Under the pieces are notes generated by a model. The model saw nothing but the letters and a program-made list of their open reading frames with translations, had not been told where the DNA came from and searched no databases. Below, one piece after another: positions 11,609 through 27,773 of a DNA stretch of 55,109 nt. Positions within the stretch are counted from its first letter, which is position 1; every line of letters begins with the position of its first letter. The stretch is from Spirochaetota bacterium (GTDB lineage Bacteria > Spirochaetota > Spirochaetia > Treponematales > UBA12059). A program made the position numbers and the translations under genes. The stretch is from the NCBI GenBank assembly GCA_018816345.1, contig JAHIWG010000006.1:1-55109 (forward strand). The letters run 5' to 3'.

Positions 11609-12772
11609 TTACACGATTTCGCGCAAGAAAGTCATCAGGGCGGAGGCGAGGTTCCCGTTCCTAACGAGCGATTCGGAGAACTCCTCGAACCCGGCCCGGC
11701 CCTCCGCGCCCAGCGAGAGGAGCGGGTAGATCCGCTCCGATCCCGCGACGTCGTCGCCGTCGGAGAGCCTGTCGTTGAAGGCGAGGAACGCGGCCTCTAT
11801 GGCCGAGAAATCCGCCTCGGAAAAGTGCGGCCGCATTCGCCCTAGCAGGGCCGCGACCTTGACGAGCTGGTGGGCTCCGTCCTGCGGATAGGCCTGCCAG
11901 AGGAAGGGCTTCCCGGACAGGGCGGCCCTGGCCATGGAATCCTCTCCCCGGACGACGAGGAAATCGCTCGCTACGAGCACCTCGTCCCAGGCCTCCTGCC
12001 GCATGAACGGCAGGTCCAGGGCTTGGAACGGCCGGCCGGCGCCCTCCCACGCCCGTGAAAAGCACGCGGCGCTCTTGCCGTGCGCGACGAGGGCCAGGAC
12101 GGGCCGTTCTCGCGAGAACTCGGCGATATCGTCGACGATTCGGCGGTAGTCGCGCTCGTACCCGAATACGACTATCCAGAACAGGCCCGCGAGGCCCTCG
12201 AGAAGCGGCCCGTCGTCTATGCCTATCCCCTCCAGGATCTCGGTCCTAGTACGCTCGCGCGCGCCCATGTAGGCGCGATCCAGGATAAGCCCGCCCGTCT
12301 TCTCGGTGAACCCGGGCAGGAACATATGCTTCCTTACCGACGAAGACCTCGTGAGCGACGGCATGCGGTGGAATTCCTCGGCGTAGCCTTCCGCGGTCAA
12401 GTACTCGAGGTTGACGATAGTCTTCCGCGCCTCGCAGGCCGGATCGAATAGCATGGCCTCGAGCCAATCGGGCCTGCCGCACGCGAAGCACTCTATGACG
12501 ACTCGGGCCGGATCGCCTCGATAGGCCAGCTCGAAGGCGGCCGCCGACGCGGGCGTCGGCCCGGACCACGATAGCACCGTCCAGCCGCGGACGCGCTGCG
12601 CCGGCGCGGCCGGGTCGACGCTCGGCTCGATCCGGTTGAAGGCTCCGAGGTCGTCGACTATCAGGCGGAGGCGCGGCGCCGTCGGCAGTTCCGAGAGCGC
12701 GCGCGCCAATCTGAACACGACCCCTATATCGCCGTAGTTGTCGACGACCCTGCAGACGATATCGAGGGTCAA
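11609..12772 (-). CDS. earP: EF-P arginine rhamnosyltransferase EarP
   Basis: EarP transfers rhamnose from dTDP-rhamnose to the tip arginine of EF-P in the cytoplasm. The 387-residue GT-B protein has the family's N-terminal motif DIVCRVVDNYGDIG, with the two aspartates (D11, D15) equivalent to the catalytic/structural pair in Pseudomonas EarP, and the C-terminal nucleotide-sugar signature RGEDSMARA with YPQDGAHQLVK. The start is TTG at 12772, five bases after the preceding stop; no good ribosome site is visible, so it may rely on coupling to the upstream gene. The target gene efp lies immediately downstream (86 bp). dTDP-rhamnose synthesis genes are not in this window. Confidence 0.95.
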   Translation of the reverse strand: MTLDIVCRVVDNYGDIGVVFRLARALSELPTAPRLRLIVDDLGAFNRIEPSVDPAAPAQRVRGWTVLSWSGPTPASAAAFELAYRGDPARVVIECFACGRPDWLEAMLFDPACEARKTIVNLEYLTAEGYAEEFHRMPSLTRSSSVRKHMFLPGFTEKTGGLILDRAYMGARERTRTEILEGIGIDDGPLLEGLAGLFWIVVFGYERDYRRIVDDIAEFSRERPVLALVAHGKSAACFSRAWEGAGRPFQALDLPFMRQEAWDEVLVASDFLVVRGEDSMARAALSGKPFLWQAYPQDGAHQLVKVAALLGRMRPHFSEADFSAIEAAFLAFNDRLSDGDDVAGSERIYPLLSLGAEGRAGFEEFSESLVRNGNLASALMTFLREIV

Positions 12773-13499: not shown

Positions 13500-14747
13500 T
13501 CACATCTTTAGCTTCTTAATCACCATGCTCTTCAGCTTTCGCAGCGACTCGTTATCCGGCTCCAGCTCCAAGGCCGCGTCGCAATCGGCTAACGCCTTAG
13601 GATAATCCTCAACGTGATAGTAGGCCTGGGCGCGCCTGTAGGTCGAATAGAAGTGGTACGGGTGTATGACCAGGGCGTCGTTGAAATCGTCTATCGCGGC
13701 CGAGTAATTCTGCTTGACGCTATGCACGACTCCGCGATAATAGGCGGCCTTGTAGCACTTCGGGTCTATCTCGATAGTAGCCGAGAAATCCTCCATCGAC
13801 TCGTCGTAGCGGCTCTCGGCGAAGAATGCCATTCCCCTATGCTTGTAGATGAGGGCTCGGATCTCGGGCTTGGGATCCATGGCCAGCAGGTGGGAATAGA
13901 TGTCTATGGCTCGCACGTAATCGGCCCTATTGTGCGCGTTCAGGGCCTCTAGCAGCAGGTCGTCCAAGGACTTCCACGGCCCTAGCCAAGCCGGTTGCTT
14001 CGGCTCCTCCCCGGCGGACCTGGAAGTCTCCTTGAAACTGGTATAGAGATCCTTGTCTATCTCGTCCTCTATCTTCTTGAAGAACGCGACCCGGCGCTTG
14101 GCGAGCTCGTTGGTCAGCTGATGCTGATAGTCCCGTATCTCCTGGAACAGCATGTCCGACAGGGTTAGGTTGGCGTTGAGGGCGGCCAGCTTCCGCTTCA
14201 TGGGATCGTCGAAGGGGGTGAACTCGGCCTTGTAGACGAGCTCGTGCTCTACCTCCGCCCACGCGTCCTGGAGGATGGTACGTATCTGAACCTCGCATAC
14301 CGGCGGGTCGATGAACGCGTTCGCCTTGAGGATATCCGCGGGTATCTCGAGCAGGAGGTGGGTCGACTCGTATCCGAATTCCTTGAACGACCTCGCTGCG
14401 CCCTTCCTCTCTACCTCTCTTACGGCGAAAAGGCCGGACAGCGCTCTTTCAACTCGCTCGAGGTCGCCTATGAAGGGGCATATGATGCGGACGGCTATGA
14501 TATCGGTAATCGGGAGCGGCTTCGTGCCGTGCGTGGAAGCGTCCCTGATGAACTTGACCTTCTTCGAGAAGAAGCTCGGGAACGACTTGATCCGATGCTT
14601 ATAGGCGGGAAAAATGCCCTCGGCGTCCAGGGCGCCTTGTATGCGCGATACCATCTCGGCCAGGATCGCCTCGACGCTCTTGCTGTTGGCCTTATACAGC
14701 CTCTCGAGCGAGGCCCTGCTCGGTAGCGGTTCAGTAGCTTCTTCCAT
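13500..14747 (-). CDS. RelA/SpoT-type alarmone synthetase fused to TPR repeats
   Basis: This 415-residue protein combines a (p)ppGpp synthetase domain with a C-terminal TPR region and lacks the HD hydrolase, TGS and ACT domains of long Rel proteins. Synthetase residues are present: D82 in TDIIAVR (metal), Y126 in EFGYES (guanine stacking), EVQIRT (152-157) and E167 in the EVEHEL motif. Three or more TPRs fill about 262-400 (for example AYYRGVVHSVKQNYSAAIDD). It should make pppGpp/ppGpp in the cytoplasm, with TPRs giving a protein contact or an oligomer switch. The ATG at 14747 has no ribosome site; a promoter ends six bases upstream, suggesting a leaderless message. Confidence 0.88.
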   Translation of the reverse strand: MEEATEPLPSRASLERLYKANSKSVEAILAEMVSRIQGALDAEGIFPAYKHRIKSFPSFFSKKVKFIRDASTHGTKPLPITDIIAVRIICPFIGDLERVERALSGLFAVREVERKGAARSFKEFGYESTHLLLEIPADILKANAFIDPPVCEVQIRTILQDAWAEVEHELVYKAEFTPFDDPMKRKLAALNANLTLSDMLFQEIRDYQHQLTNELAKRRVAFFKKIEDEIDKDLYTSFKETSRSAGEEPKQPAWLGPWKSLDDLLLEALNAHNRADYVRAIDIYSHLLAMDPKPEIRALIYKHRGMAFFAESRYDESMEDFSATIEIDPKCYKAAYYRGVVHSVKQNYSAAIDDFNDALVIHPYHFYSTYRRAQAYYHVEDYPKALADCDAALELEPDNESLRKLKSMVIKKLKM

Positions 14748-14840: not shown

Positions 14841-15923
14841 CTATTTCTTCTCTTCCGAGAAGCCGGTCTTCGTCTCCTGCTTCATGCGCTCGATGTAGCG
14901 CATGACCTGGGAAGCTCCGAAGCGCTGGCTCTCGAGGCGCTTACGATCGTCTTCCTTCTGCCCGACGATGCCCCAGATGGCCTCGTCGTCGATGTCGCGG
15001 ACAGGCTCGAGGACGGCCTTGTCGTAGAGGATCTTGACGTCCTTGACGTAGGCGATGAAGTCGCCGCCGATGGCCTCCGCGTCCCTGGAGACGAGGAACC
15101 CGGCGAACTTGACGAAGGGGGTCGAGCGCGGATAGAGCGGGTCGATCCTGAGCTCGCGGTTGCGAACGTCGGAGATGTACTGGGGATTGTCCCAGCGGAG
15201 CTCGCGCCAGCCGTCGAAGTTCAGATAGCCCATGAACATGACGTGCTCTTCGGCGTCGTTATCCTTGAGGATGATGGACAGGCCGTGGGGGAAGTTGAGT
15301 CCCTTGACGTTTACGGCGATCGACTTGATGACGCCCACGTTCTTGACGACGCCGAGGGCGGTGACGATCTTGGTGTCGGCGTTATAGCTACCCTCGAAGC
15401 GGGAAAGCCTAGCGTTGACGGGATCGGATCCCTGCGCGTCGGCCTTAGGCACGATGGCGCCGGAATCGTCGATGTCGGCCTTAGGCTCGAAGGCGGGAAC
15501 GTCGAAGGGAGGCTGTATCCTGGCCCAGGAGTTAAACGGCTCCAGGGGGAAGCTGACGCGTACTCCGAGGGCCTTGGCGCCGGCGTACTGCTTGGCGTCC
15601 TGGGCTATCTGAGCCTCGCGGGTATACGAGAGAGCCTGGCGCTCTCCGGTCCTGGACGACGAGGCGAGGATGACGTCCCAGTTGGGGATGGCGAGAGAGA
15701 TAGCCATCTGCTTCTTCTGCTCGTCGGTATAGCTAGCCCCGGCTACCGTGGAGAAATCCATCATGGTCGCGCGGTTCTGGGTCATCATCCCTTTCTGGAT
15801 GGGGTCCTCGATGATATCCGCTCCGAGGAGGGAAAAATCTATCAGGACGGCTTCATCCGCGAAAGCGACCGAGGCGCTCGCGATTAATAGAGCGGCGACG
15901 ATCAGTGCTAACGGCCTTCTCAT
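14841..15923 (-). CDS. flaA: flagellar filament outer-layer (sheath) protein FlaA
   Basis: FlaA forms the sheath around the FlaB core of spirochaete periplasmic flagella. The 360-residue precursor has a signal peptide cleaved near SVAFA-DEAVLIDF; the mature start, the PFNSWARIQPPFDVPAFEP region, the NFPHGLSIIL segment and the FVKFAGFLVSRDAEAIGGDF block followed by an acidic/basic C-terminus are typical of FlaA. Export to the periplasm by Sec is expected. AAAGGAG precedes the ATG at 15923. A near-perfect sigma70 promoter (15973-16000) and a terminator frame it as a single-gene transcript. It directly follows the seven-gene operon that ends with the GerMN gene. Confidence 0.95.
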   Translation of the reverse strand: MRRPLALIVAALLIASASVAFADEAVLIDFSLLGADIIEDPIQKGMMTQNRATMMDFSTVAGASYTDEQKKQMAISLAIPNWDVILASSSRTGERQALSYTREAQIAQDAKQYAGAKALGVRVSFPLEPFNSWARIQPPFDVPAFEPKADIDDSGAIVPKADAQGSDPVNARLSRFEGSYNADTKIVTALGVVKNVGVIKSIAVNVKGLNFPHGLSIILKDNDAEEHVMFMGYLNFDGWRELRWDNPQYISDVRNRELRIDPLYPRSTPFVKFAGFLVSRDAEAIGGDFIAYVKDVKILYDKAVLEPVRDIDDEAIWGIVGQKEDDRKRLESQRFGASQVMRYIERMKQETKTGFSEEKK

Positions 15924-15972: not shown

Positions 15973-16000
15973 ATTATAGTCAAGCCGTACCCTTTGTCAA
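15973..16000 (-). promoter_or_regulatory. consensus flaA promoter with overlapping dyad
   Basis: On the minus strand TTGACA (15995-16000), a 16-bp spacer and TATAAT (15973-15978) match sigma70 consensus exactly. The -10 sits inside an inverted repeat, TTGACT-ATAATCA-AGTCAA, that could bind a repressor or simply be chance. Confidence 0.8.
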
Positions 16001-16020: not shown

Positions 16021-16572
16021 CTATTTAGCCATTAAAGACGGTTCCCATGACGGTTCGTTGCCCCCGACGGTGATCACTATCTTATAAAGCGGCAGGTTCC
16101 AGCGCAGCGTACGATCGATGAACGCGAGCGCGGCGCGCGGCTGTAGCGGAGGCGAATCGTACACGTCCGCCGACTTGAGCCGCCCGAACAGGATATCGCT
16201 CGAAACGTCGACGTAGAGCGTCTTGTCTGAGCGGATGGACGAGATCAGCCTGGCGCTCGGTACGCTTATTGGCCTCGAAGTGGGAACGAGCGGGCCGAGG
16301 AGCATTTCCTCGACGATAGAGGCCGCGGTCCTCGCCGCGTCGCGATCCGAGCGGATATACCGCAGCTCCGCGCGCGCGCCGCCTTCCGACGTGGCTTCGG
16401 GAAACCATAGCACCGTCGCCCTCCGCGAGGGAAACGAGAAGGATACCGCGGCGCTGACTATGAACGCGGCTATAAGCAGGCCAGGCCAGAATATCCTGGG
16501 CCTGAGCGCGATGTTCAGCGCCGCGCGAGCCGAGCTGAATACACTCCCTAACGAACGCTTCACGCTACTCAC
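16021..16572 (-). CDS. GerMN-domain membrane-anchored protein
   Basis: A 183-residue protein with an N-terminal transmembrane helix (about 28-50, FWPGLLIAAFIVSAAVSF) and an extracytoplasmic GerMN domain (about 52-175: VLWFPEA, SIVEEMLLGPL, LYVDVSSDILF, RTLRWNLPLYKIVITVGG). GerMN domains occur next to cell-wall amidases and in spore germination proteins; their exact role is not settled. The GTG start at 16572 overlaps the amidase stop (GTGA), so the two are translationally coupled and probably act together on peptidoglycan. It is the last gene of the operon that starts at 24170. Confidence 0.85.
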   Translation of the reverse strand: MSSVKRSLGSVFSSARAALNIALRPRIFWPGLLIAAFIVSAAVSFSFPSRRATVLWFPEATSEGGARAELRYIRSDRDAARTAASIVEEMLLGPLVPTSRPISVPSARLISSIRSDKTLYVDVSSDILFGRLKSADVYDSPPLQPRAALAFIDRTLRWNLPLYKIVITVGGNEPSWEPSLMAK

Positions 16573-17654
16573 AAACCCTTCCTATGCTCGAAATACTCCA
16601 CGAAATCTATGATGCCATTATAAATGCCGTCGCCGAGCTTACGCAAGTGACCCGGGTCGGACAGCTTCCTGGCCTCGGCCTCGTTAGTGACGAAGCCGAC
16701 CTCCACGAGCACCGAAGGCATCTTCGCGTTGCGCACGACGAACCACTCCTCGGCGCGCAGACCCCGGTCGACGGACGCGTCGCCGATTTTAGCCTTCAGG
16801 CCGCCGAGTATGCTCTTGGCCAGGAAAACGCTCTCGGTGGTGTATTCTTCCTCCAGCATGGCGTTCAGGATGGGCAGGACGCTCTTATCGACGCCCTCGG
16901 CCTTCTTGTCGTCGACGACGGTGCGCCTATACTCGGGATTCAGGTACCATACCTCGAAGCCCGAGGCCGATTTATTGAAGGAGGCGTTGGCGTGGACCGA
17001 AACGTATATGATCGCCTCGTTGAGCCCCAGCTGGACGTCGTTGGCCATATCGACTCGCGCGTCGAGGGACGGGTAGGTATCGCCCGATCGGGTTATTAGG
17101 ATACGCTTATCCGGCCACGCGGCCTGCAGGCGGGCGTAGAGGTCCTTGCCGATGGCTAGGGATACGTCCTTCTCGAGCACGCGCAGGCGATCCTTGCCGG
17201 ATCCGAATTCCCCGATAGCGCCCGAATCCTTCCCTCCGTGGCCCGGATCTATGATGATGGCGGCGACGCTGAACCGCGAGGCGCGCTCCGCGTCGCGCTC
17301 CGCGAACCATCGCGCTATGGCCCTCTCCGTATCTAGCGGCATTTGCAGGCGGCCGCCCGAGTCGCGGACGGCCGCGGACCTCAGGGGGCGGCCCGAGCCT
17401 AGAGAGAAGACGGGATAGTCCTTCTTGAAGCGCACTAAGTCGCCGCCGCGCAGGATGTGGCCGGTGCCGGTCAAGGGATCGTACGATACGGCGGCCTTCC
17501 ATTCGGAAGCCGCCGCCATGATGTCCACCCACCCCGCGGTCGCGCTTGGGGCCGTCGCGCTTGGGGCCGTCGCGCCTTGGGCGCCCGCCCTGGAGGCTAC
17601 GGCCACGAGCGCGAGCAATAAGGCCAGCCGCGAGGTTTTATCCGGCCCTCTCAA
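16569..17654 (-). CDS. N-acetylmuramoyl-L-alanine amidase (Amidase_3)
   Basis: A zinc amidase that cuts the stem peptide from muramic acid in the periplasm. The 361-residue precursor has a signal peptide (SRLALLLALVAVASRAGA) and a C-terminal catalytic domain with zinc ligands in DPGHGGKDSGA (His), EKDVSLAIGKDL (Glu) and SVHANAS (His), plus the catalytic Glu in VEVGFVTN. A middle region of about 80 residues precedes it. I place the start at TTG 17654, which overlaps the ATP-grasp stop (TTGA) and leaves a proper signal peptide; the upstream extension is arginine-rich frame noise. A 15-bp repeat encodes ATAPS units just after the signal peptide. The gene is coupled to the GerMN gene downstream. 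Confidence 0.92.
   Translation of the reverse strand: MRGPDKTSRLALLLALVAVASRAGAQGATAPSATAPSATAGWVDIMAAASEWKAAVSYDPLTGTGHILRGGDLVRFKKDYPVFSLGSGRPLRSAAVRDSGGRLQMPLDTERAIARWFAERDAERASRFSVAAIIIDPGHGGKDSGAIGEFGSGKDRLRVLEKDVSLAIGKDLYARLQAAWPDKRILITRSGDTYPSLDARVDMANDVQLGLNEAIIYVSVHANASFNKSASGFEVWYLNPEYRRTVVDDKKAEGVDKSVLPILNAMLEEEYTTESVFLAKSILGGLKAKIGDASVDRGLRAEEWFVVRNAKMPSVLVEVGFVTNEAEARKLSDPGHLRKLGDGIYNGIIDFVEYFEHRKGL
17539..17583 (-). repeat. 15-bp tandem repeat in the amidase signal/linker region
   Basis: Two exact copies of GTCGCGCTTGGGGCC (17539-17553, 17554-17568) and a degenerate third encode repeated ATAPS residues. Length change would stay in frame and only alter a linker. Confidence 0.75.
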
Positions 17655-19243
17655 GCGCCGGCCCCCGTCCCGGCCGATCCGCCGGCTACGACCCCGTCCA
17701 CGACCCACGCGCCGGCCTGGTAGCCGCCCCGGAAGAGGGCCCGCCAGAACGAGGAGCCGAGCACCGCCTCGCCGTGCGCGCCCACGGTAGCGCCCGTGAG
17801 CGCGGCGACCGCCTGCAGGGATTCGACGATGCCGCGGCCCTGCCAATCTAGCGCCGTCTCGCCCTCTACGCCCTGCAGCGGGGCGATCGATACGGTCGCC
17901 GGGTTCGCGCAGGCGCGGAGCATTCCCGGCATCTTGTCGAGCGACGCTAGCGTCATAGCCGACAGGCCCGTATAGGCCTCGGGAGGCCAGGAGGAGCCGC
18001 CCGGTCCTCGTATCCTGCCTTCTCCCCGGAGGAAGCCGGCCGTGCGGGCGTCTCCGCGCTCAAGGCGCACGAGTATCGACCTGGCGGCGGCCTCGGCGAG
18101 CCTATCCGCCGTCGCTATATCGGGCGCGACGGCTAGCACGTTGCCGCATTTCTCCACGTTATTGCACGGGAACACGACCCTGTCGCCCGCCCCGGCGCGG
18201 GCGAACACGTCGCGCACGCCTTCCAGACGCGCCGCGGCGTCCAGTCCCGCCACCGAGGCCACGGTACCCGGTATCGATATCCAGGCCCTCTCGGAGCAGG
18301 CAAGGCTTAGCGTCGGCTCGCGCATGGCCGGCTCGACGCCGCAGGCTATGTCTATGGCCTCCGCCGTCGCCTCTATGCCGCTCGAGTACGGATAGGTCCA
18401 GCCGGACATATAGCCGCCCGAGAGCCTCGCGGCTATCTCGCCTACGAAGGCGCCCGACCTCGTGTACTTGATGTCTCCCTTGGCGGCGCCGTCCCGGATG
18501 CCGAGGGCCGCGACGCCCTTCTCGAAGACCGCTACGACCTCCGAGAGGACCTCCGGCCCGTAGGCGCTGGGCATCGTGTGCCCCATCTCCACGAAGAAAG
18601 GCTCGAATACCACGGCCCTGTCGGCGACTCCCCTGAGCGCGACCCGTCCCCCGCTGACTATGGCGTCGATGCTGAATTCCGGCCCCTCGAGATAGGCCTC
18701 GACGATGGCCCGCCCCGTCCTCGAGTTAGCCACGGCGTCGTCCCAGGCCTCGCGCAGCTCGCCTATCGTCCGAGCGAGCCGGCAGCCTCGGGCGCCCATG
18801 TTATCCACGGGCTTGACGACGAGGGGCAAGGCGGCGACGCGCGACGCGAGCTCCTCCGGATCGTCCATCCGCGAGCCGTAGGCGTACGCCGGCACGGCCA
18901 CGCCTCCCGCCGCGAGACGCTCGCGCATCCTGGCCTTATCCGACGCGTCCAGAGCGACTTCGTAGGGTATTCCCGGCAGGCCGAGCTCGCGGGCCACCCA
19001 GGCGACCGAGGCGGAGAAATCCGTTCCGGCGGTCATGACCCCGGCGAGGCCGGCGATGCCCTTGGCGGCTAGCGTCAACGCTTCCTTGTCCTTGAGGTCG
19101 ACGTGCAGGAAACCGTCGGCCGACGCGGCGTTGGCCGCGTCGGGATTGCCGTCCGCGGCGTACGTCCTATAACCCTTGGACTTGGCTATCCTGATGGCGG
19201 GGCCCTGCATGACCCCGGCCCCGAGTATCAATATCGATTTCAT
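17651..19243 (-). CDS. ATP-grasp ligase-like protein of the spiro-SPASM operon
   Basis: A 530-residue protein with the carbamoyl-phosphate-synthase/PurK-type ATP-grasp fold. The N-terminus is a pre-ATP-grasp nucleotide-like fold (ILILGAGVMQGPAIRIAKSKG), then LPLVVKPVDNMGARGC (ATP-binding loop, about 144-159) and the metal site FVGEIAARLSGG (about 273-284). About 200 further residues follow with no clear assignment. ATP-grasp enzymes join a carboxylate to an amine or thiol through an acyl phosphate; the substrate here is unknown. The ATG at 19243 overlaps the stop of the upstream fusion gene (ATGA) with GGGGAG before it, so it belongs to the same operon. Confidence 0.8.
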   Translation of the reverse strand: MKSILILGAGVMQGPAIRIAKSKGYRTYAADGNPDAANAASADGFLHVDLKDKEALTLAAKGIAGLAGVMTAGTDFSASVAWVARELGLPGIPYEVALDASDKARMRERLAAGGVAVPAYAYGSRMDDPEELASRVAALPLVVKPVDNMGARGCRLARTIGELREAWDDAVANSRTGRAIVEAYLEGPEFSIDAIVSGGRVALRGVADRAVVFEPFFVEMGHTMPSAYGPEVLSEVVAVFEKGVAALGIRDGAAKGDIKYTRSGAFVGEIAARLSGGYMSGWTYPYSSGIEATAEAIDIACGVEPAMREPTLSLACSERAWISIPGTVASVAGLDAAARLEGVRDVFARAGAGDRVVFPCNNVEKCGNVLAVAPDIATADRLAEAAARSILVRLERGDARTAGFLRGEGRIRGPGGSSWPPEAYTGLSAMTLASLDKMPGMLRACANPATVSIAPLQGVEGETALDWQGRGIVESLQAVAALTGATVGAHGEAVLGSSFWRALFRGGYQAGAWVVDGVVAGGSAGTGAGA

Positions 19244-21021
19244 ACGCTCCCCGGGCGGCCCGTATAGACGGCGTAGCACTCGAAAGTGTCTCCGAGGCCG
19301 CAGAGTCTGGAGGCCGCCATGGCGGCCTTATACCGTAACGTCCGGGGATCCGCCGGAACGCCCGGAAAGCGCTCTGGATGATGCCCGGTAACGACGATAC
19401 GTTGTACCTCGAAACCGAAGCGCTTGAGAATACCGGGCGCGGTCTTCGGGCTCCAGACGGTGAAATGGTCGTCGGGGGAACGCTCGTAGAAGGCCCCCGG
19501 ATCCTTCCGGGCGGAGATACCCGAGCCCGAGGGCGTCGAGAAGGCGAACACGCCGCCGGGCCTTAGGAGCGAGGCCGCGCGCCTCAGGATACGGCCGAGC
19601 TCCTCGAAATGCTCTATGACGTACCACATCGAGAGGCAGGCAGCGTTCCGCGGGTACAGGCCGTCGGCGCCGGGCTCGGAGAAATCGCCTACGAAGGCCG
19701 GGACGCCGAAGCTGTCGCGCACGTACTCCACGGCGTCGGGGGACAGGTCTGAGCCTACGGGATCCCAGCCGCGGGCCTGGGCCTCGGCGACGAAGGCGCC
19801 GTAGGCGCAGCCGACGTCCAGGATGCATTGCCCCTCGTGGCCGGCGGGCAGGAGCGATTCAATGACGCCCAGGCGCTTGGCCGCCGAGAGCCTGATGGAA
19901 GGGATATCCTCGATGTACGTGCGCCCGTATTGCGCCTTGTACTCCTCGAAGAAGTAGGCTCGCTCCGCGTAGGGGTTTTCCCTCGGATGAAAGTGCGCCA
20001 TGCGCACGAGGCCGCAATCGGGGCAGGCGAGGTAGGTCTTTCGCTCGTTCCTATAGACCGCGACGCCGTCGGGGCGGCCGCAGCAGGGGCATTCGCCCGA
20101 GTTCCTCGGCGTCAGCGAATCGATCCTCGCCGCGAGGTCCAGCCGTTCCCGGGGAGCCGCCCGAGCCGTCGCCTCTATCATGCCTCCGGGCTCCGCGAGC
20201 ATGGAGCCGAGGACCTTCCTGCTAGGCGCCGATATACCGAGGCTGTAGAAGCCGGCGGCTCGGGATAGTTCCTCGTGCGCGTCGCTAGGGTTTAGTAGGA
20301 GCACCGCGCAACCGGCCCAGGCAGCCTCGAAGGCGGTGAGGCCGAACTGCGTGACGACGAGATCGTACGAGCGGAGCATCTCCTTGAGGTCCTGCACAGG
20401 ACCTATGGCGGTCACGCCGGGGAAACGCGACTCGGACCTCGAAAGAGCCCCCGTGACCACCGTGACCTGCTCGGGCGATAGGATCCCGCCGCCTATGGCC
20501 GCCTCCAGGAAGGATTCGGCTAGCCTGCGGGGGTCTTCCCCCCCGAAGCTCACGAGGACGCGCCGTATCGCCTGAGGAGGCTCCCGCCTCGCCTCGGGCA
20601 AGGAGAGGAAGCCTAGCGAGGCGATGTTAGGCGGCGATCCGACGCGGGCGGCCCGCCTGGCGCGGGGCAGGATGTCAATGAGGTACGAGGCTCGCGGCCT
20701 CGCCTCCCCGCCCTCGTCTATCGCGACTACTGCCCCCCGGGCCGACCATCGCGCCAGCTCCGTGGCGCTGGTCTCTCGCCTGTCGAGGACTACGAGCCTG
20801 AAGCGCGCCTCCGACCTCAGCTCGCCTATGACGCGGACGGCGCCCATCTCCCGGGGATACGCGAGCCGTAGCTCGTCGGCGCTCCAGTAGCCCTCTCCAG
20901 GATCGTCCGCCAGGAACAGGGCCGCGGTATTACCGAGCGCCCGCGCGAGCGAGAAGCACCGGACCAGGTGGCCGGAGCCGTTCCCGCGGCGGACCGACGG
21001 CACGAGGAGTATTTCTACCAT
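19240..21021 (-). CDS. SpsG/PseG-like sugar-nucleotide enzyme fused to a methyltransferase
   Basis: A 593-residue fusion. Residues 1-295 resemble the GT-B type UDP-sugar hydrolase/transferase PseG/SpsG (RRGNGSGHLVRCFSLARAL near the start, VLVSFGGEDP at 155-164, TQFGLTAFEAAWAGCAVLLL at about 224-243). A zinc ribbon follows (C311, C314, C333, C336), then a class I methyltransferase with motif I LDVGCAYGAF (401-410) and WYVIEHFEEL. The layout of zinc ribbon plus methyltransferase is like sugar C-methyltransferases. It probably prepares or modifies a nucleotide-linked sugar with the SpsF-like enzyme encoded 5 bp upstream. Its ATG at 21021 lacks a strong ribosome site, and it ends in an ATGA overlap with the ATP-grasp gene. 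Confidence 0.82.
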   Translation of the reverse strand: MVEILLVPSVRRGNGSGHLVRCFSLARALGNTAALFLADDPGEGYWSADELRLAYPREMGAVRVIGELRSEARFRLVVLDRRETSATELARWSARGAVVAIDEGGEARPRASYLIDILPRARRAARVGSPPNIASLGFLSLPEARREPPQAIRRVLVSFGGEDPRRLAESFLEAAIGGGILSPEQVTVVTGALSRSESRFPGVTAIGPVQDLKEMLRSYDLVVTQFGLTAFEAAWAGCAVLLLNPSDAHEELSRAAGFYSLGISAPSRKVLGSMLAEPGGMIEATARAAPRERLDLAARIDSLTPRNSGECPCCGRPDGVAVYRNERKTYLACPDCGLVRMAHFHPRENPYAERAYFFEEYKAQYGRTYIEDIPSIRLSAAKRLGVIESLLPAGHEGQCILDVGCAYGAFVAEAQARGWDPVGSDLSPDAVEYVRDSFGVPAFVGDFSEPGADGLYPRNAACLSMWYVIEHFEELGRILRRAASLLRPGGVFAFSTPSGSGISARKDPGAFYERSPDDHFTVWSPKTAPGILKRFGFEVQRIVVTGHHPERFPGVPADPRTLRYKAAMAASRLCGLGDTFECYAVYTGRPGSV

Positions 21022-21026
21022 ATCGC

Positions 21027-21713
21027 TTATCCGCCCTTCCGCTCGGCCCGAACCCAGGACAGGACCTCCTCGTCGGAAGGCGCCGCGCCGTATTCCGATA
21101 CTATCGCCAGGGCCCTATCGAAATCGGCCCGGGTGTCTACCGTGACGCGGCCGCCCGGCAGGAAGTAGCCCTCGGGGCACTCGGGCCTGAGCACGGAGAA
21201 CAGGCCGGGGTTACGGTATAGGTACGGGCAGACGTGCTCTCGATCGAACGCATCGCGGGCCTCGCGCGCGGCCTTAAGGAGGGCGCCCGCGAGCACGGCC
21301 TCGACGCCCATGCCCACGGGCATGCCGACGAGCCCCACGTAATCCGCTCCCGCCTCGCGGGCGACGCTCAGGGCGGCCTCGGCGAGCGTCGCCGATACGA
21401 AGGGATTGTCTCCCGTGGCCCGGACCACCCTGCTTAGGGAGAACGCCTCGATAGCCATGGCGTACCGGGCCAGGACGTCGTCCTTGGGCCCCGCGAACAC
21501 CGAGAAGCCGGCGTCCCGCGCCGCCTCGCCGAGGGCTGACGCGCCGGCGGCGTCGGTCGCGAGGACGTACTCGTCGGCATCTATCCCGCGCAGCCTGCGC
21601 ATGACCATCCCCGCGAGGCACGTCCCGCCTATCGGGAGCAGGGCCTTGCCTGGCAGCCTCGAGGAGTCGAGGCGCATCTGGACCACGACGCCCGTCCGCT
21701 CCCCTCCCGTCAC
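21027..21713 (-). CDS. SpsF-like cytidylyltransferase
   Basis: A 228-residue enzyme of the CMP-sugar synthetase (SpsF/CMP-Kdo synthetase) family. The nucleotide-binding N-terminus is visible as QMRLDSSRLPGKALLPIGG, followed by RATGDNPFVSA (the metal-binding D region) and RVTVDTRADFDRALAIV near the end, a signature of SpsF proteins. It should activate a sugar acid or related sugar with CTP. The start is GTG at 21713, overlapping the preceding stop (GTGA); an internal ATG at the QMRLDSS motif would cut the first strand. It pairs with the SpsG-like protein encoded next, as SpsF and SpsG do in other bacteria. Confidence 0.88.
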   Translation of the reverse strand: MTGGERTGVVVQMRLDSSRLPGKALLPIGGTCLAGMVMRRLRGIDADEYVLATDAAGASALGEAARDAGFSVFAGPKDDVLARYAMAIEAFSLSRVVRATGDNPFVSATLAEAALSVAREAGADYVGLVGMPVGMGVEAVLAGALLKAAREARDAFDREHVCPYLYRNPGLFSVLRPECPEGYFLPGGRVTVDTRADFDRALAIVSEYGAAPSDEEVLSWVRAERKGG

Positions 21714-22672
21714 GAAAGCGGGTCCCATAGATCGGCGAGGCGCGCGGCGTCGGCCTTGAAGCGGTACGAGCAGGCGGAGACCCATTCCCGGGCCGCCTTG
21801 AATTCCTCGAGGCCGGAGGCGGGGCCCATCCTCGAGCGGGCCAGGTAGCTTATCAGCCTGGAACGGGGCAGGACCGCGCAGTCGCCGCGATACGATGGGG
21901 CGAGGTTCTTGAGCCAGAACCGGCCGTAGTCCGCGTCGGGCGTCGTATCGTCCGGCTGTGGCGAGCCTTCGTAATTGAGCCTGAGGGCCTGGGCGTAGCG
22001 GATCGACTCTCCCCATAGCCACGCGCGCATGCCGAAGTCGAGCTTCTGCCAATACGGGTTGGAGATGGTCCAGTCGAAGCCCCCGAGCGAGGTGAATTTC
22101 TCGCGCGAGTATATGCCGCAGGCGTCGAAGGGATAGAGGCTCTTCTCCCCGTCCGCCTTGGGCGGCAGGGGGACGACCTTGAAGGCCTTCCCGGATTGCG
22201 CCGGATGGCTGATAGACGGCACGACCGAGCCGGCCGAGTCGTTCAGGGTCGGGACGAGGCAGGCGGCCCCTAGCTCCGTGACCTTGTCGAAGAAGCGGCT
22301 CGACAGCGTGCTCGTCGCGAGCCTCAGGTCGTTCCACATGACCAGCACGAACGGCGAGCAGGATTCGCGCATGCCGATGTTGATCCTCGCGCCTAGGTTG
22401 GCTTCCTCGTGCAGGCAGACGAAGCGGACCTGCGGGTACTTCGACGTGATACCCTCCAACTCGGGCGAGTCAACGGGCCCCTCCATCGATACGATAGAGT
22501 CGAAGCCTACCTTGACGAGGTCCTGTATCAGCGCGGCCCGGTAGAGCCTCGGGCCTCGGTTGAGGAGGAGCACCGAGACGGGGAAGCCGTCGTTGCAGCC
22601 CGCGCCCCGTCCGCCTCCCAGGACCGTATAGGTAGGCCTGAAGGCGTCAAGCGTTAAAGGTATGGTATTCAT
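21710..22672 (-). CDS. glycosyltransferase-2-like protein
   Basis: A 320-residue protein with a GT-A type layout: an N-terminal nucleotide-binding part (PVSVLLLNRGPRLYRAALIQ), ANLGARINIGMRES, and VMWNDLR, which stands where the metal-binding DXD usually lies but is not a canonical DXD. A later region (LGGFDW, YWQKLDFGMRAWLWG) resembles the acceptor half of family 2 enzymes. It probably transfers a sugar in the cytoplasm, but the donor is unknown. The ATG at 22672 lies 26 bp inside the end of the spiro-SPASM gene, and the end overlaps the SpsF-like start, so all three are coupled. Confidence 0.72.
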   Translation of the reverse strand: MNTIPLTLDAFRPTYTVLGGGRGAGCNDGFPVSVLLLNRGPRLYRAALIQDLVKVGFDSIVSMEGPVDSPELEGITSKYPQVRFVCLHEEANLGARINIGMRESCSPFVLVMWNDLRLATSTLSSRFFDKVTELGAACLVPTLNDSAGSVVPSISHPAQSGKAFKVVPLPPKADGEKSLYPFDACGIYSREKFTSLGGFDWTISNPYWQKLDFGMRAWLWGESIRYAQALRLNYEGSPQPDDTTPDADYGRFWLKNLAPSYRGDCAVLPRSRLISYLARSRMGPASGLEEFKAAREWVSACSYRFKADAARLADLWDPLS

Positions 22673-24170
22673 CGCACCGTCCGCAGGGTTCGGGATAATC
22701 GCGGACGAGGTGCCTTCCATACCAGGCGCCCATCCTGTTCCAGACCGCCTCGAGGCCGTCGTCGAAGGCGTTACCCTCTATCTCGGCGTAGGCGAGGCGC
22801 CCGTCGGCGCCCTTCGAGAGGCAATGCTTGCACGCCGGGACGTCGCCGTTGCAGAGCACCGCGACGTCGCGCGCAAGGTGCCTGCAAGGAAGCCTATCCA
22901 GGGGCGACAGGTCCGCGACTACCCTATCGGGCAGGCACGACGCGAACGAGTCGTATTTCTGCACTATGACCTTGTCGCCGCGCTTCTTCCAGCCCCTGTA
23001 GAACGCCTCGAGGCGGCTCTCGTTCTCCTTCATGCGCACCGCCTGGACGTGCACGTTGCCCGGCGAGGCGACTATCATACGCTCGGCGAAGGCGCAGGCC
23101 TCGTCCTTGCCCTCTCCCCGCAGCGTCCTATAGCCGTCGTCGTCGGCGTCGTCGAGGGAGACGATCCATTGCACGCGGCTCCCGGCCTTGGCGGCTATCG
23201 CCTCGGCCAGGCCTTGCTTCCAGCCTATGCCGCTCGTCTCCACGATCATCGTGAAGCGGGGCCGCGCCATGACGGCCCCGGCGAGCGCGGCGAAGTCGGG
23301 ATGCAGCGACGGCTCGCCCCAGAGCGACACGTCGACGACGAGGTCGTCGCAGAGCGACTCGGCGTCCGCCATGAGCCGCTCGAAGCGCTCTACGGGCATC
23401 GTCCCGGACAGTCCCCTCGGGTCGCCTACCATGCCGGGATACGGGCAGTAGGAACAGGCCTGGGGGCAGCCCTCGGCGATCTGCACCCACATGAACGCCG
23501 GGACCGTCCTCAGGAGCTCGGGATGCCCGGGCAGGAAGCCGGTCGCGTCCCGGGCCGACCTGACGCCTTGGCCCCACAGGCGCTCGGCCGTCACGAAGCC
23601 GCGCTTGGAGTCGCAGACCGGCGCGAAACGGAAGGCCCTCAGGTCGACGGGCGACAGGTGCGTCTCGATATCGTAGGAATTAATGTCTTTCTGTATCACC
23701 GCGAAGAGGCCGTCGCGCTCGGAGGGCGCGTCATGCCTCGAGGCCAGCTCGACTATATTGGGAAGGCTCTTGACGGCTATGAGCTCGGGGGCGAAGCCGG
23801 GCGGGTAGCCGTCCGCGAAAGTGTACTCCGCGCGATAGCGCCTATGGAGCTCGAGGAGGGTCTTCGTAAGCTCTAGGTCCATGAACGGGGCGTCGGCGTG
23901 GAAGTAGAGGACGGTATCGGCTCCGGGCTTCGAGGCCGCGAAGCCAGCCGCTTCGGAGAGCACGTCATGCATCGTCCACGAAGGCTTCCGTACCGTCGCT
24001 ATACCCAGCTCGGGTACGGACGGCGACGCTATGACGAGGATTCCGTCGTCTCCGCCTAGTACGCCCCGCGCGTACGACAGAACGCGTTCCATGGCGCTCG
24101 GGCCGCCCGCGAGCGGAGCGAGGGCGAATTCATTGACCTTCGCGGCGTTTATTATCGCTAGTGTTTCCAT
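22647..24170 (-). CDS. spiro-SPASM radical SAM protein
   Basis: A 507-residue protein, first gene of the operon. Its centre holds a radical SAM domain with CX3CX2C cysteines C235, C239 and C242 and the GEP-like motif LWGEPSLHPDF (about 284-294). The C-terminus is a SPASM-type auxiliary cluster domain with C429, C440, C447, C450, C496 and C499. The first ~200 residues resemble a nucleotidyltransferase/GT-A fold (VLYFHADAPFMD at 88-99, YTFADGYPPGFAPELI). The combination matches the spiro-SPASM family known from spirochaetes, whose reaction is unknown. By context it may act on a sugar nucleotide or a peptide linked to it. The ATG at 24170 has a weak ribosome site. Confidence 0.87.
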   Translation of the reverse strand: METLAIINAAKVNEFALAPLAGGPSAMERVLSYARGVLGGDDGILVIASPSVPELGIATVRKPSWTMHDVLSEAAGFAASKPGADTVLYFHADAPFMDLELTKTLLELHRRYRAEYTFADGYPPGFAPELIAVKSLPNIVELASRHDAPSERDGLFAVIQKDINSYDIETHLSPVDLRAFRFAPVCDSKRGFVTAERLWGQGVRSARDATGFLPGHPELLRTVPAFMWVQIAEGCPQACSYCPYPGMVGDPRGLSGTMPVERFERLMADAESLCDDLVVDVSLWGEPSLHPDFAALAGAVMARPRFTMIVETSGIGWKQGLAEAIAAKAGSRVQWIVSLDDADDDGYRTLRGEGKDEACAFAERMIVASPGNVHVQAVRMKENESRLEAFYRGWKKRGDKVIVQKYDSFASCLPDRVVADLSPLDRLPCRHLARDVAVLCNGDVPACKHCLSKGADGRLAYAEIEGNAFDDGLEAVWNRMGAWYGRHLVRDYPEPCGRCDEYHTFNA

Positions 24171-24302: not shown

Positions 24303-27300
24303 ATGAAGATCGCTAGAAAATTCACGACCGCGGGCAAAGGCCCCTATGAAGGCATACGATGGGAGCGCCGCGTCTCGGAGATTAAAAACCCCGACGGCAA
24401 GACGGTCTTTAGGATGGACGGCGTCATCGTCCCCTCGACCTGGAGCCAGATAGCGACCGATATAATCGCCCAGAAATATTTCCGCAAGGCGGGCGTACCG
24501 GCGGACAAGGCGGACGCCTGGCGCGCCTGGGTACCCGAGTCGCAGCAGACGCTCGGCGGAGCGTCGCCCAACCCCGGGTCGGAGCACGACGCGAGGCAGG
24601 TCTTCCATCGCCTGGCCTACACGTGGCTCCTCTGGGGCAAGGCGTCCGGCTACTTCGACTCCGAGGCCGACGAGAAGGCGTACTACGACGAGATATGCCG
24701 CATGCTGGCCACCCAGCGCGGCGCGCCCAATAGTCCCCAGTGGTTCAATACCGGCCTCCACGCCGTTTACGAGCTCGAGGGACCGGCCCAGGGCCATTAC
24801 TTCGTCGATCCCGCTACGGGGGAGGTGGTAGCCTCGTCGAGCGCCTACGAGCGCCCCCAACCCCACGCCTGCTTTATCCTCAACGTCGAGGACGACCTCG
24901 TCAACGACGGCGGCATCATGGACCTCGTCGAGCGGGAGGCGCGACTCTTCAAGTACGGCTCCGGCACCGGCTCCAACTTCTCCAAGATACGCGGGGCGAA
25001 CGAGTCGCTCTCCGGCGGAGGCGTCTCGAGCGGCCTCCTGTCGTTCCTCAAGATAGCCGACCGCTCGGCCGCCGCCATCAAGTCGGGCGGCACCACGAGG
25101 CGCGCCGCGAAGATGGTCATACTCGACGCCGACCATCCGGACATCGAGGCCTTCGTCGAGTGGAAGACGGGCGAGGAATTCAAGGTCGCGAGCCTCGTCA
25201 CCGGCAGCAGGGCCCTCAAGCGCTACTCCTCGGCCATGCGGGACGCGGCGTCCAGGGCCGACGTGCCGGCCGCCGACAGGCTTTCCTTCGACGCCAACCC
25301 CTGGCTCCGGGCCGCGGCCAAGGAAGCGCTCGACGCCGGCGTCCCAGGGGCTTACGTCTACCAGCTCCTACGCCGCATAGCCGACGGCGACCCGGACATC
25401 GACGGCCAGGTCTTCGACGCCAACTGGGAGGGAGAGGCCTACAATACGGTCTCCGGCCAGTCGTCCAACAACTCGGTGCGCGTCACCAACGAGTTCATGG
25501 AGGCGGTCGCCAAGAACAAGGACTGGGCCCTGACTATGCGCAAGGGCGGCAAGACGATGAAGACGGTCAAGGCCCGCTCGCTGTGGGATCGCATCGCCAA
25601 GTCGGCGTGGCAGTGCGCCGACCCGGGGCTCCAGTTCCATACCACCATAAACGACTGGCACACCTGCCCCGCCGACGGCCCCATCCGCGGTTCCAATCCC
25701 TGCTCCGAGTACATGTTCCTGGACGATACGGCGTGCAACCTCGCCTCGCTCAACCTGACGTCGTTCTACGACGAGGCGACGCGGTCCTTCGACGCCGACG
25801 CCTACAGGCACGCGGTCAGGCTCTGGACCATGACGCTGGAGATATCCGTCGCGATGGCCCAGTTCCCGTCCAAGGAGATAGCCCGCAGGAGCTTCGACTA
25901 CCGGACGCTGGGCCTCGGGTACGCCAACCTCGGCACGCTCCTCATGCTGATGGGCCAGCCCTACGACTCCGACGAGGGCCGCGCCACCGCGGCCGCCCTC
26001 ACCGCCCTGACCACGGGCGAGGCCTACGCGCACTCCGCGCGCATGGCCGCCGAATTCGGCCCCTTCGCGCGGTACGGCGCCAACGCCGACTCGATGCTCC
26101 GCGTCGTCCGCAACCATCGCCGCGCGGCCTACGACTCCGCGCCCGCCGAGTACGAGGGCCTGTCGGTAGCCCCCAAGGGCCTGGACGCCTCGAAGGCCCC
26201 TCCCGCCCTTGTGGCGGCGGCGAGAGCCTCCTGGGACGAGGCGCTGGCCGTCGGAGAGGCGCACGGCTACAGGAACGCCCAGACCACCGCCATCGCGCCT
26301 ACCGGGACGATAGGCCTCCTCATGGACTGCGATACCACGGGAATAGAGCCGGACTTCGCCCTCGTGAAATTCAAGAAACTGGCAGGGGGCGGCTACTTCA
26401 AGATAGTCAACAACTCTATCGCCCCCGCGCTCCGCGCCCTCGGCTACTCCGAGGAGCAGATAGAGGACGTCAGGCTCTACATGGTCGGCCGGGGCACTCT
26501 CGAGGGGGCGCCAGGCGTGCCGCTCGCCTCGCTCCGCGAGAAGGGCCTGCCGGACGCCGCGCTCGACAAGGCGGAGAAGGCGCTCAAGTCGGCGATGGGC
26601 CTGGACTCGGCCTTCAACCCCTACACGCTGGGCTCAGAGGCCTTCGACGCGGTCGGCGCGGTCGCGGATATCCGCAGCGAGGCGGATTTCGACGTACTGG
26701 CGTTCATGGGATTCTCCGCGCCCGAGATCGGCGCGGCCGAGGCCTACGCCTGCGGGTCGATGGGCATAGAAGGCGCCCCCCACGTCAAGAAGTCCCATTA
26801 CGCCGTCTTCGACACCGCGACGCCCTCGGGCAGGTCGGCCACGAGGTCGATAGCGTGGCAGGCCCATATCGCCATGATGGCCGCGACCCAGCCCTTCGTC
26901 ACGGGCGCGATATCCAAGACGATCAACATGCCCGACTCGGCCAGCTTCGACGACGTCAAGGGCGCCTACATGACGGCGTGGAAGAGCATGCTGAAGTCGA
27001 TCGCCCTGTACCGCGACGGGTCGAAGCTATCGCAGCCCCTGTCATCGATAGCCGCGGGCGCGAACCCCTTGGCGGAGGGCCTCATCGCCCTGCAGTCGGC
27101 GCCAGCCGAGATACCGGAGGGCGCGAAGCCCTCCGAGCCGGTCCCGGCCGTAGCCAGCGTCCGCCATTCCCTGCCTAACCGCCGCGACGGCTATACCCAG
27201 AAGGCGAAGATAGGCGGCCATTCCGTATTCGTCCGCACGGGCGAGTACGACGACGGCCGCCTGGGAGAGATATTCCTCGATATGCACAAGGAGGGCGCAG

Positions 27301-27773
27301 CGTTCAGGAGCCTCCTCAACTCATTCGCCATAGCGGTGTCGCTGGGCCTGCAGTACGGCGTGCCCCTGGAGGAATACGTCGACGCCTTCACCTTCAGCCG
27401 CTTCGAGCCCAACGGCATGGTCCAGGGCCACGAGTATATAAAGATGGCGACGAGCGTGCTCGACTACGTGTTCCGGGACCTGGCGATCAGCTACCAGGAC
27501 CGCTTCGACCTCGGCCAGGTCAAGCCCGAGGACCTGAACGCCACGAACACGCAGAACGGCAAGGCCAAGCGAGAGACGGAGAGGCGGGCCCAGGAGACGC
27601 AGGATAGGGCCAGTCCCGCGGCCCAGGCTCCCCGCCCCAAGGACGACTCGAAGAAGGCGCGCATGAAGGGCTACGAGGGAGACCCCTGCCCCGTCTGCGG
27701 CCACCTGACCCTAGTCCGCAACGGCACCTGCCTCAAGTGCGAGACCTGCGGGAGCACGACCGGCTGCAGCTGA
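24303..27773 (+). CDS. nrdJ: adenosylcobalamin-dependent ribonucleotide reductase (class II)
   Basis: NrdJ makes deoxyribonucleotides with or without oxygen using B12. The 1156-residue protein has the glycine-rich [14 protein letters not shown] region (about 218-231), the active-site signature [11 protein letters not shown] from residue 465 (C467), and [20 protein letters not shown]. After the core comes a long linker and then a vitamin-B12-RNR C-terminal domain (about 960-1080: [21 protein letters not shown]). The terminal zinc-ribbon/redox cysteines are C1129, C1132, C1143, C1146, C1149 and C1155. A GGAGG ribosome site precedes the ATG at 24303, and an NrdR-like box lies in the promoter. 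The divergent neighbour is the spiro-SPASM gene. Confidence 0.97.

Follow-up and report, generated by a model that had tools for sequence, protein, structure and literature searches.

A conserved spiro-SPASM operon beside flaA in spirochaetes unites two gene modules, one of them a candidate part of a nonulosonate pathway for flagellin glycosylation

Combining family profiles, structure models and a survey of gene order in related genomes, we characterized a seven-gene minus-strand operon, headed by a spiro-SPASM protein and followed by the flagellar sheath gene flaA, in a Spirochaetota bacterium (GCA_018816345.1, contig JAHIWG010000006.1; the whole analysed stretch of 55,109 nt is called the window hereafter). 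This operon is the union of two modules adjoining flaA, namely module A (genes 1, 3, 4 and 5) and module B (genes 2, 6 and 7). Module A would supply the middle and the end of a cytidine monophosphate (CMP)-nonulosonate pathway for O-glycosylation of the flagellin FlaB, a reading to which we give a probability of about 0.7.

Anatomy and conservation of the operon

Window proteins were assigned to families with Pfam and NCBIfam profiles. The operon opens with gene 1 (22647–24170, on the minus strand like all seven; 507 aa), a spiro-SPASM protein whose TIGR04321 score of 471.8 bits is well above the family cut-off of 250 bits. It overlaps by 26 bp the start of gene 2 (21710–22672, with its ATG at 22672; 320 aa), a glycosyltransferase-like protein assigned to the glycosyltransferase A (GT-A) fold from its AlphaFold2 (AF2) model. 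Through a GTGA overlap at 21713 follows gene 3 (21027–21713; 228 aa), an SpsF-like cytidylyltransferase (CTP_transf_3, 97.5 bits) and candidate CMP-nonulosonate synthetase, separated by a 5-bp gap from the ATG at 21021 of gene 4 (19240–21021; 593 aa). The latter fuses an SpsG/PseG-like hydrolase, with a weak PseG match and invariant residues G15, G17, H18 and R21, to a class I methyltransferase with a Cys-pair ribbon (Methyltransf_23, 72 bits). After an ATGA overlap (19243), gene 5 (17651–19243; 530 aa) encodes an ATP-grasp ligase of the L-amino-acid-ligase group (LAL_C2, 59.5 bits; ATP-grasp_4, 41.5 bits; Protein Data Bank (PDB) profile matches 3vot and BacD), a candidate sugar N-acyl ligase; its homologs at L232 and L233, from other classes of the phylum, are ~720–755 aa long, with an extra C-terminal part. 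The operon ends with gene 6 (16569–17654, TTGA overlap at 17654; 361 aa), an exported Amidase_3 N-acetylmuramoyl-L-alanine amidase (PF01520, 150 bits), and gene 7 (16021–16572, GTGA overlap at 16572; 183 aa), a membrane-anchored Germane (GerMN; PF10646) protein that matches weakly in the window (16.5 bits for a gathering score of 23) and more strongly in its homologs at L031 (27.5 bits) and L213 (34.6 bits). An earlier note made from the window's letters had described these seven genes and their six junctions, and re-reading the junctions on the sequence confirmed all of them. Downstream lies gene 8, flaA (14841–15923, minus strand; PF04620, 247 bits), which encodes the flagellar filament sheath protein and adjoins the operon in most loci; a sigma-70-type promoter match (TTGACA, 16 bp, TATAAT; 12/12) precedes it at 15973–16000 on the same strand.

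Of 393 Spirochaetota genomes, 320 gave TIGR04321 matches (above the cut-off in 291), and gene order was surveyed in 119 loci (L031–L149) taken around such matches. The complete order from gene 1 to gene 7 and flaA occurred in about 79 of these loci, most of the others being cut by contig ends. At each of the six junctions, the genes overlapped, were fused or lay no more than 20 bp apart in about 84–99% of loci. The exact 26-bp overlap between the 3' end of the spiro-SPASM gene and the start of gene 2 recurred in 103 of 111 loci, across the class Spirochaetia; at the next five junctions a 4-bp stop-start overlap was the most frequent spacing, flaA being spaced apart by a median of 91 bp (counts over related loci). 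Genes 3 and 4 form a single protein of ~850 residues in Treponemataceae-like genomes, and one genome from beyond the class (G001, f22) carries, in a row, the spiro-SPASM gene, a fused SpsF-SpsG-methyltransferase gene, the amidase, GerMN and FlaA genes. The gene order of the operon is thus conserved across the class Spirochaetia, far beyond chance. The refuting outcome that the earlier note had named, genes dispersed in related genomes and nowhere side by side, was not what we found. As stated in a passage of PMC9481697, flaA of Treponema denticola is co-transcribed with four upstream open reading frames.

Several neighbours of the operon also have recognizable families. In the taxonomic order of this genome, the gene that usually comes after flaA encodes a RelA_SpoT protein with tetratricopeptide (TPR) repeats (13500–14747; 415 aa). 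An EarP-like arginine rhamnosyltransferase of elongation factor P (EF-P) lies at 11609–12772 (PF10093, 258.6 bits, under the NCBIfam equivalog cut-off), and a ribonucleotide-reductase-like gene (24303–27773), divergent from the operon, is the same neighbour in f1 and f4 genomes.

Two separable modules

The division into modules A and B follows from natural gene loss, which separates genes 2, 6 and 7 from genes 1, 3, 4 and 5. Groups are named here by inferred labels: Treponema pallidum-like (G056), Borrelia-like (f6), T. denticola-like (f2 g8) and Brachyspira-like (f29). In the Borrelia-like group, flaA is followed by genes that, to the eye, resemble chemotaxis genes. In the Borrelia-like genome G076 (L210), gene 2, the amidase, GerMN and FlaA genes follow each other with no module A gene between gene 2 and the amidase; the spiro-SPASM, SpsG-like and ATP-grasp genes are absent from this genome, as are NeuB, PseC and Maf, and flagellin is present. 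Within f9, three flagellin-less genomes (G318, G149 and G238) have kept the tight trio of gene 2, amidase and GerMN while module A is absent, and their flagellated relative G298 has both modules and Maf. An amidase remains the neighbour of a gene 2 relative in f12 (L214). The T. pallidum-like genome carries genes 1–4, gene 5 and the amidase-GerMN-flaA group at three separate sites. We consequently rejected a single seven-gene pathway.

Gene 2 gave no Pfam or NCBIfam match, and its AF2 model (predicted local distance difference test, pLDDT, 88.7) was closest to the polypeptide N-acetylgalactosamine-transferases (ppGalNAc; GT27), with Z 20.3 over 261 residues at 3.4 Å, the next group lying at Z ~15. 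As a candidate metal motif, homologs hold at residues 114–115 a pair of ND, DD, EE or NT type in which D115 is conserved at ~90% and not strictly kept; the likeness to GT27 is one of fold. We rejected gene 2 as the transferase of flagellin in the main reading: it persists beside the amidase in non-flagellated f9 and in Borrelia-like genomes that lack NeuB, and the Maf proteins fit the part instead. Its pairing with the amidase where flagella or NeuB are lacking argues for a role in the envelope. By its distribution, module B is thus an envelope module that depends neither on flagella nor on the sugar, and it would be the older of the two; where flagella are present, it would act on the envelope around them, in the periplasm, with no need of the sugar. 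The earlier note had enlisted all seven genes in one pathway, with genes 6 and 7 acting on the wall; gene 2 moves to the side of these two, away from the sugar genes.

The spiro-SPASM protein

Structure models were built from window and related-locus sequences, and that of gene 1 (pLDDT 95.1) comprises two halves. Residues 1–204 adopt a nucleotidyltransferase fold (PDB 6oew, Z 20.4 over 215 residues; GlmU, Z 16.6), in which N164, D176 and R181 are near-invariant and D93 is present in most homologs. Since neither the window protein nor its homologs show a glycine-rich GxGxR...K pyrophosphate loop in their first 40 residues, we did not class gene 1 as an active nucleotidyltransferase. Residues 219–507 form a SPASM/twitch radical S-adenosylmethionine (SAM) fold, with SuiB (Z 23.3) and BtrN (Z 22.5) as the closest structures.

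The two cluster motifs of this second half have contrasted fates. The SPASM cysteines C429, C447, C496 and C499 occur in 134 of 136 aligned homologs, whereas the radical-SAM motif CX3CX2C, intact in the window (C235, C239 and C242; CPQACSYC), is missing in 31 of the 136 non-redundant homologs, including a T. pallidum-like one, and is found nowhere else in those 31 proteins, 30 of which retain the full set of four SPASM cysteines. A quick unrooted tree, for which the motif columns were left out, shows at least 11 changes of the trait; repeated loss is the natural direction for these changes, although not a proven one, the tree being unrooted. Motif-less proteins retain 69% of the positions conserved in the others across the radical-SAM region, 82% across the nucleotidyltransferase half and 90% across the SPASM region, which argues for selection on a function other than SAM-radical chemistry. 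On account of the 31 motif-less proteins among the 136 homologs, we rejected radical chemistry as the universal role of the spiro-SPASM family. The enzymatic role expected from the SPASM assignment in the earlier note may thus apply to the window protein, whose motif is intact, and not to the family as a whole.

A literature search on the spiro-SPASM family (TIGR04321) returned no paper, and no pathway is assigned to it in the sources searched. Its name hints that those who curated the family may have noticed proteins without the radical-SAM motif. In a passage of PMC4403809, TPASS_0285 is listed as a SPASM protein and TPASS_0289 as a methyltransferase, and the spiro-SPASM gene of our T. pallidum-like genome, near 300 kb, is in keeping with locus TPASS_0285.

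That the spiro-SPASM protein acts as a nucleotide-sugar holder seems possible to us, at slightly less than even odds. A broader proposal, equally tentative, is a joint one. The family would descend from a radical-SAM enzyme whose conserved job has become radical-free, that of a nucleotide-sugar-holding iron-sulfur protein, built from a nucleotidyltransferase domain without its loop and a SPASM cluster, needed for nonulosonate flagellin glycosylation, the cluster having been shed in many lineages including T. pallidum-like, T. denticola-like and Brachyspira-like ones; at the same time, the pathway would acylate its sugar by the ATP-grasp ligase, possibly with an acid from a molybdenum-hydroxylase trio described below. 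Such a family, in which the catalytic radical-SAM cluster is dropped time and again and the auxiliary one kept, offers a useful case for understanding what SPASM clusters do.

A candidate nonulosonate pathway for flagellin

The distribution of module A points to flagellin. Co-occurrence was scored in 80 genomes for flagellin, in 38 for Maf and PseH and in 23 for NeuD. The spiro-SPASM gene was present in 61 of the 66 flagellated genomes and in none of the 14 without flagellin; the five flagellated exceptions are three Borrelia-like genomes, G321, whose operon runs off a 13.6-kb contig, and G317. Of 38 genomes, all 26 flagellated non-Borrelia ones and no others had Maf proteins (PF01973), at 3–5 copies each, and 25 of these 26 had the spiro-SPASM gene, against 0 of the 12 others. 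In genome G000, two of the four Maf/MptE-like matches lie close together (C131:104974–107102). Fisher tests gave 5e-9 and 8e-12 over related, non-independent genomes, and the weight of the argument rests on the some four or five occasions on which the genes were lost jointly and separately from other lineages (f6, f12, f9 g43 and two genera of f4). NeuB matched at E <1e-45 in every SPASM-bearing Spirochaetia genome tested, genes 5 and 4 following the same pattern; the NeuB of the window's genome (PF03102, 193.6 bits) is at L224:9470–10600.

Most probably, the sugar is a nonulosonic acid whose synthesis also draws on genes outside the operon. According to a passage of PMC7439481, Bacillus subtilis needs spsC, spsD, spsE and spsG for legionaminic acid synthesis, SpsF being a cytidylyltransferase and spsF being needed for transfer of this sugar. 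Counterparts of these steps are recognizable here as a CapD/PseB-like dehydratase, a PseC-like aminotransferase, the SpsG-like half of gene 4, the NeuB synthase and gene 3. The first two are adjacent in most genomes, the pair of the window's genome being at L249.

PseB, PseC, PseG and PseI matches all fell below their equivalog cut-offs. PseH (TIGR03585) was over its cut-off in 0 of 38 genomes, and we therefore did not class the pathway as the standard pseudaminic one (PseB-C-H-G-I-F). A NeuD-type acetyltransferase was over the cut-off in 1 of 23 genomes, the only NeuD-type match of the T. pallidum-like genome being the N-terminal part of its dehydratase. Enzymes of the L-amino-acid-ligase group join an acid to an amine. 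Given this group membership of gene 5 and the want of a PseH or NeuD counterpart over the cut-off, gene 5 is a candidate for the N-acylating enzyme of the sugar, an assignment we place at even odds.

In the window's genome (contig C32), the dehydratase and aminotransferase genes open a five-gene cluster (L249:1603–7615), also observed at L250–L273, that continues with a molybdenum-hydroxylase trio (MoCoBD/Ald_Xan_dh_C, Fer2_2 and FAD_binding_5). This trio follows the sugar pair in nearly all Spirochaetia examined, including the T. pallidum-like genome; G276 and G126 have the dehydratase at another site and the trio after the aminotransferase, and in G246, G278 and G078 the two sugar genes have no trio beside them. 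TPASS_0079 and TPASS_0081 are listed as xanthine-dehydrogenase-like in a passage of PMC4403809. The cluster is probably part of the same sugar pathway, and an oxidase that makes the acyl acid or oxidises the sugar would fit the trio, as a lead and not a result.

The pathway that we propose would begin with the CapD/PseB-like dehydratase and the PseC-like aminotransferase and pass through the NeuB synthase, all encoded away from the operon. Gene 4 would remove uridine diphosphate (UDP) and methylate the sugar or its acyl chain, gene 5 would form an amide between the amino sugar and an unusual acid, doing the job of PseH, and gene 3 would make the CMP-sugar. The nucleotidyltransferase-like domain of gene 1 would hold a nucleotide or a nucleotide-sugar; with CX3CX2C intact, as it is in the window, the protein may oxidise or rearrange this ligand by radical chemistry, acting radical-free in other lineages. 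Maf proteins would finally attach the sugar to FlaB; Maf-dependent flagellin glycosylation is known (PMC4065374). In T. denticola, FlaB carries a 450.2-Da glycan essential for filament assembly (Kurniyati 2017, as cited in a passage of PMC9481697), and putative glycans of Leptospira FlaB1 are placed between the core and the sheath in a passage of PMC13144727, a position that would explain why the sheath gene flaA is the neighbour of the operon. Presence, order, domain content and joint gain or loss of these genes are observed, from which the flagellin target and the roles of genes 1, 3, 4 and 5 are inferred. The rare-sugar pathway aimed at flagella that the earlier note had suggested is well supported by the co-occurrence of NeuB, PseC-like, Maf and flagellin genes, with three amendments: two modules in place of one, radical chemistry that is not universal in the spiro-SPASM family, and further genes outside the operon.

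Several observations weigh against flagellin glycosylation by this pathway. The flagellated G317 carries Maf, NeuB and PseB/PseC genes and lacks the operon; at 93% completeness an assembly gap is likely, though not proven. The co-occurring genomes are related, so that counts are not independent, and it is by co-occurrence that the genes outside the operon are linked to it. The exact sugar is not fixed by the profiles, gene 4 scoring 28 bits for PseG, far below the equivalog cut-off of 153.6, and the NeuB proteins lying below both of the equivalog cut-offs applied to them (for PseI, 188.8 bits against 340.3). The absence of PseH and NeuD likewise rests on family cut-offs, and other acetyltransferases exist. 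NeuB, finally, also serves surface polysaccharides in this phylum.

This last point leads to an unlikely alternative, in which the sugar goes on a surface polysaccharide or lipid and the flagellar link is indirect, both being lost in reduced lineages. NeuB indeed occurs in polysaccharide-like clusters in the phylum (L223) and in two flagellin-less genomes (G372 and G227), but Maf tracks the operon through 38 genomes with one exception, flaA adjoins it, and within f9 the flagellated member has everything while its three flagellin-less relatives have none but module B. The whole operon could also be a single unit for wall remodelling, by which periplasmic flagella are accommodated in the wall, its sugar being placed on peptidoglycan or on the FlaA sheath. 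The tight junctions that bind the seven genes, and the amidase, GerMN and flaA genes found downstream in most loci, speak for such a unit, which we consider improbable because the modules separate in Borrelia-like and non-flagellated f9 genomes and the T. pallidum-like genome has the genes at three sites. Least probable, and very much so, is modification of a peptide by the spiro-SPASM protein, in the manner of ribosomally synthesized and post-translationally modified peptides (RiPPs), with the ATP-grasp ligase and the methyltransferase working on the same peptide. The best match of its radical-SAM half, SuiB, is a peptide cyclase, and ATP-grasp enzymes also serve peptide pathways, but the aminocyclitol enzyme BtrN scores level with SuiB, a precursor-peptide gene would find no room in the tight junctions from gene 1 to gene 7, and the N-terminal half has a nucleotidyltransferase fold in place of a peptide-recognition domain.

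Flagellin glycosylation through a nonulosonate pathway, the reading we prefer, names a testable set of genes: the four operon genes, NeuB, the five-gene dehydratase-aminotransferase-molybdoenzyme cluster and the Maf transferases. If it is true, Borrelia-like spirochaetes are predicted to lack this glycan, which in T. denticola is essential for filament assembly and motility and for which we found no full gene set in the literature consulted.

Among known systems, the Sps system of B. subtilis (SpsM-C-D-G-E-F) shares with these genomes the dehydratase, DegT aminotransferase, SpsG-like hydrolase, NeuB-type synthase and SpsF-like cytidylyltransferase. It differs in that here no PseH or NeuD counterpart reaches the cut-off, an ATP-grasp ligase, an SpsG-fused methyltransferase and the spiro-SPASM protein are added, and the probable target is flagellin in place of the spore crust. 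Pseudaminic flagellin glycosylation in Campylobacter, Helicobacter and Aeromonas likewise brings together nonulosonate genes, flagellin and Maf in the same genomes, whereas in spirochaetes PseH is not over its cut-off, PseB, PseC, PseG and PseI are below theirs, and the gene group includes flaA and an amidase. For the TIGR04321 family, of which gene 1 is a clear member, our results add a placement in a pathway and a radical-SAM cluster motif missing in many lineages. As for the FlaB glycan of T. denticola, reportedly a pseudaminic-type nonulosonate bearing an N7 2-methoxy-4,5,6-trihydroxyhexanoyl group, a structure that an amide ligase together with a methyltransferase would suit, it is likely the product of this pathway in a relative.

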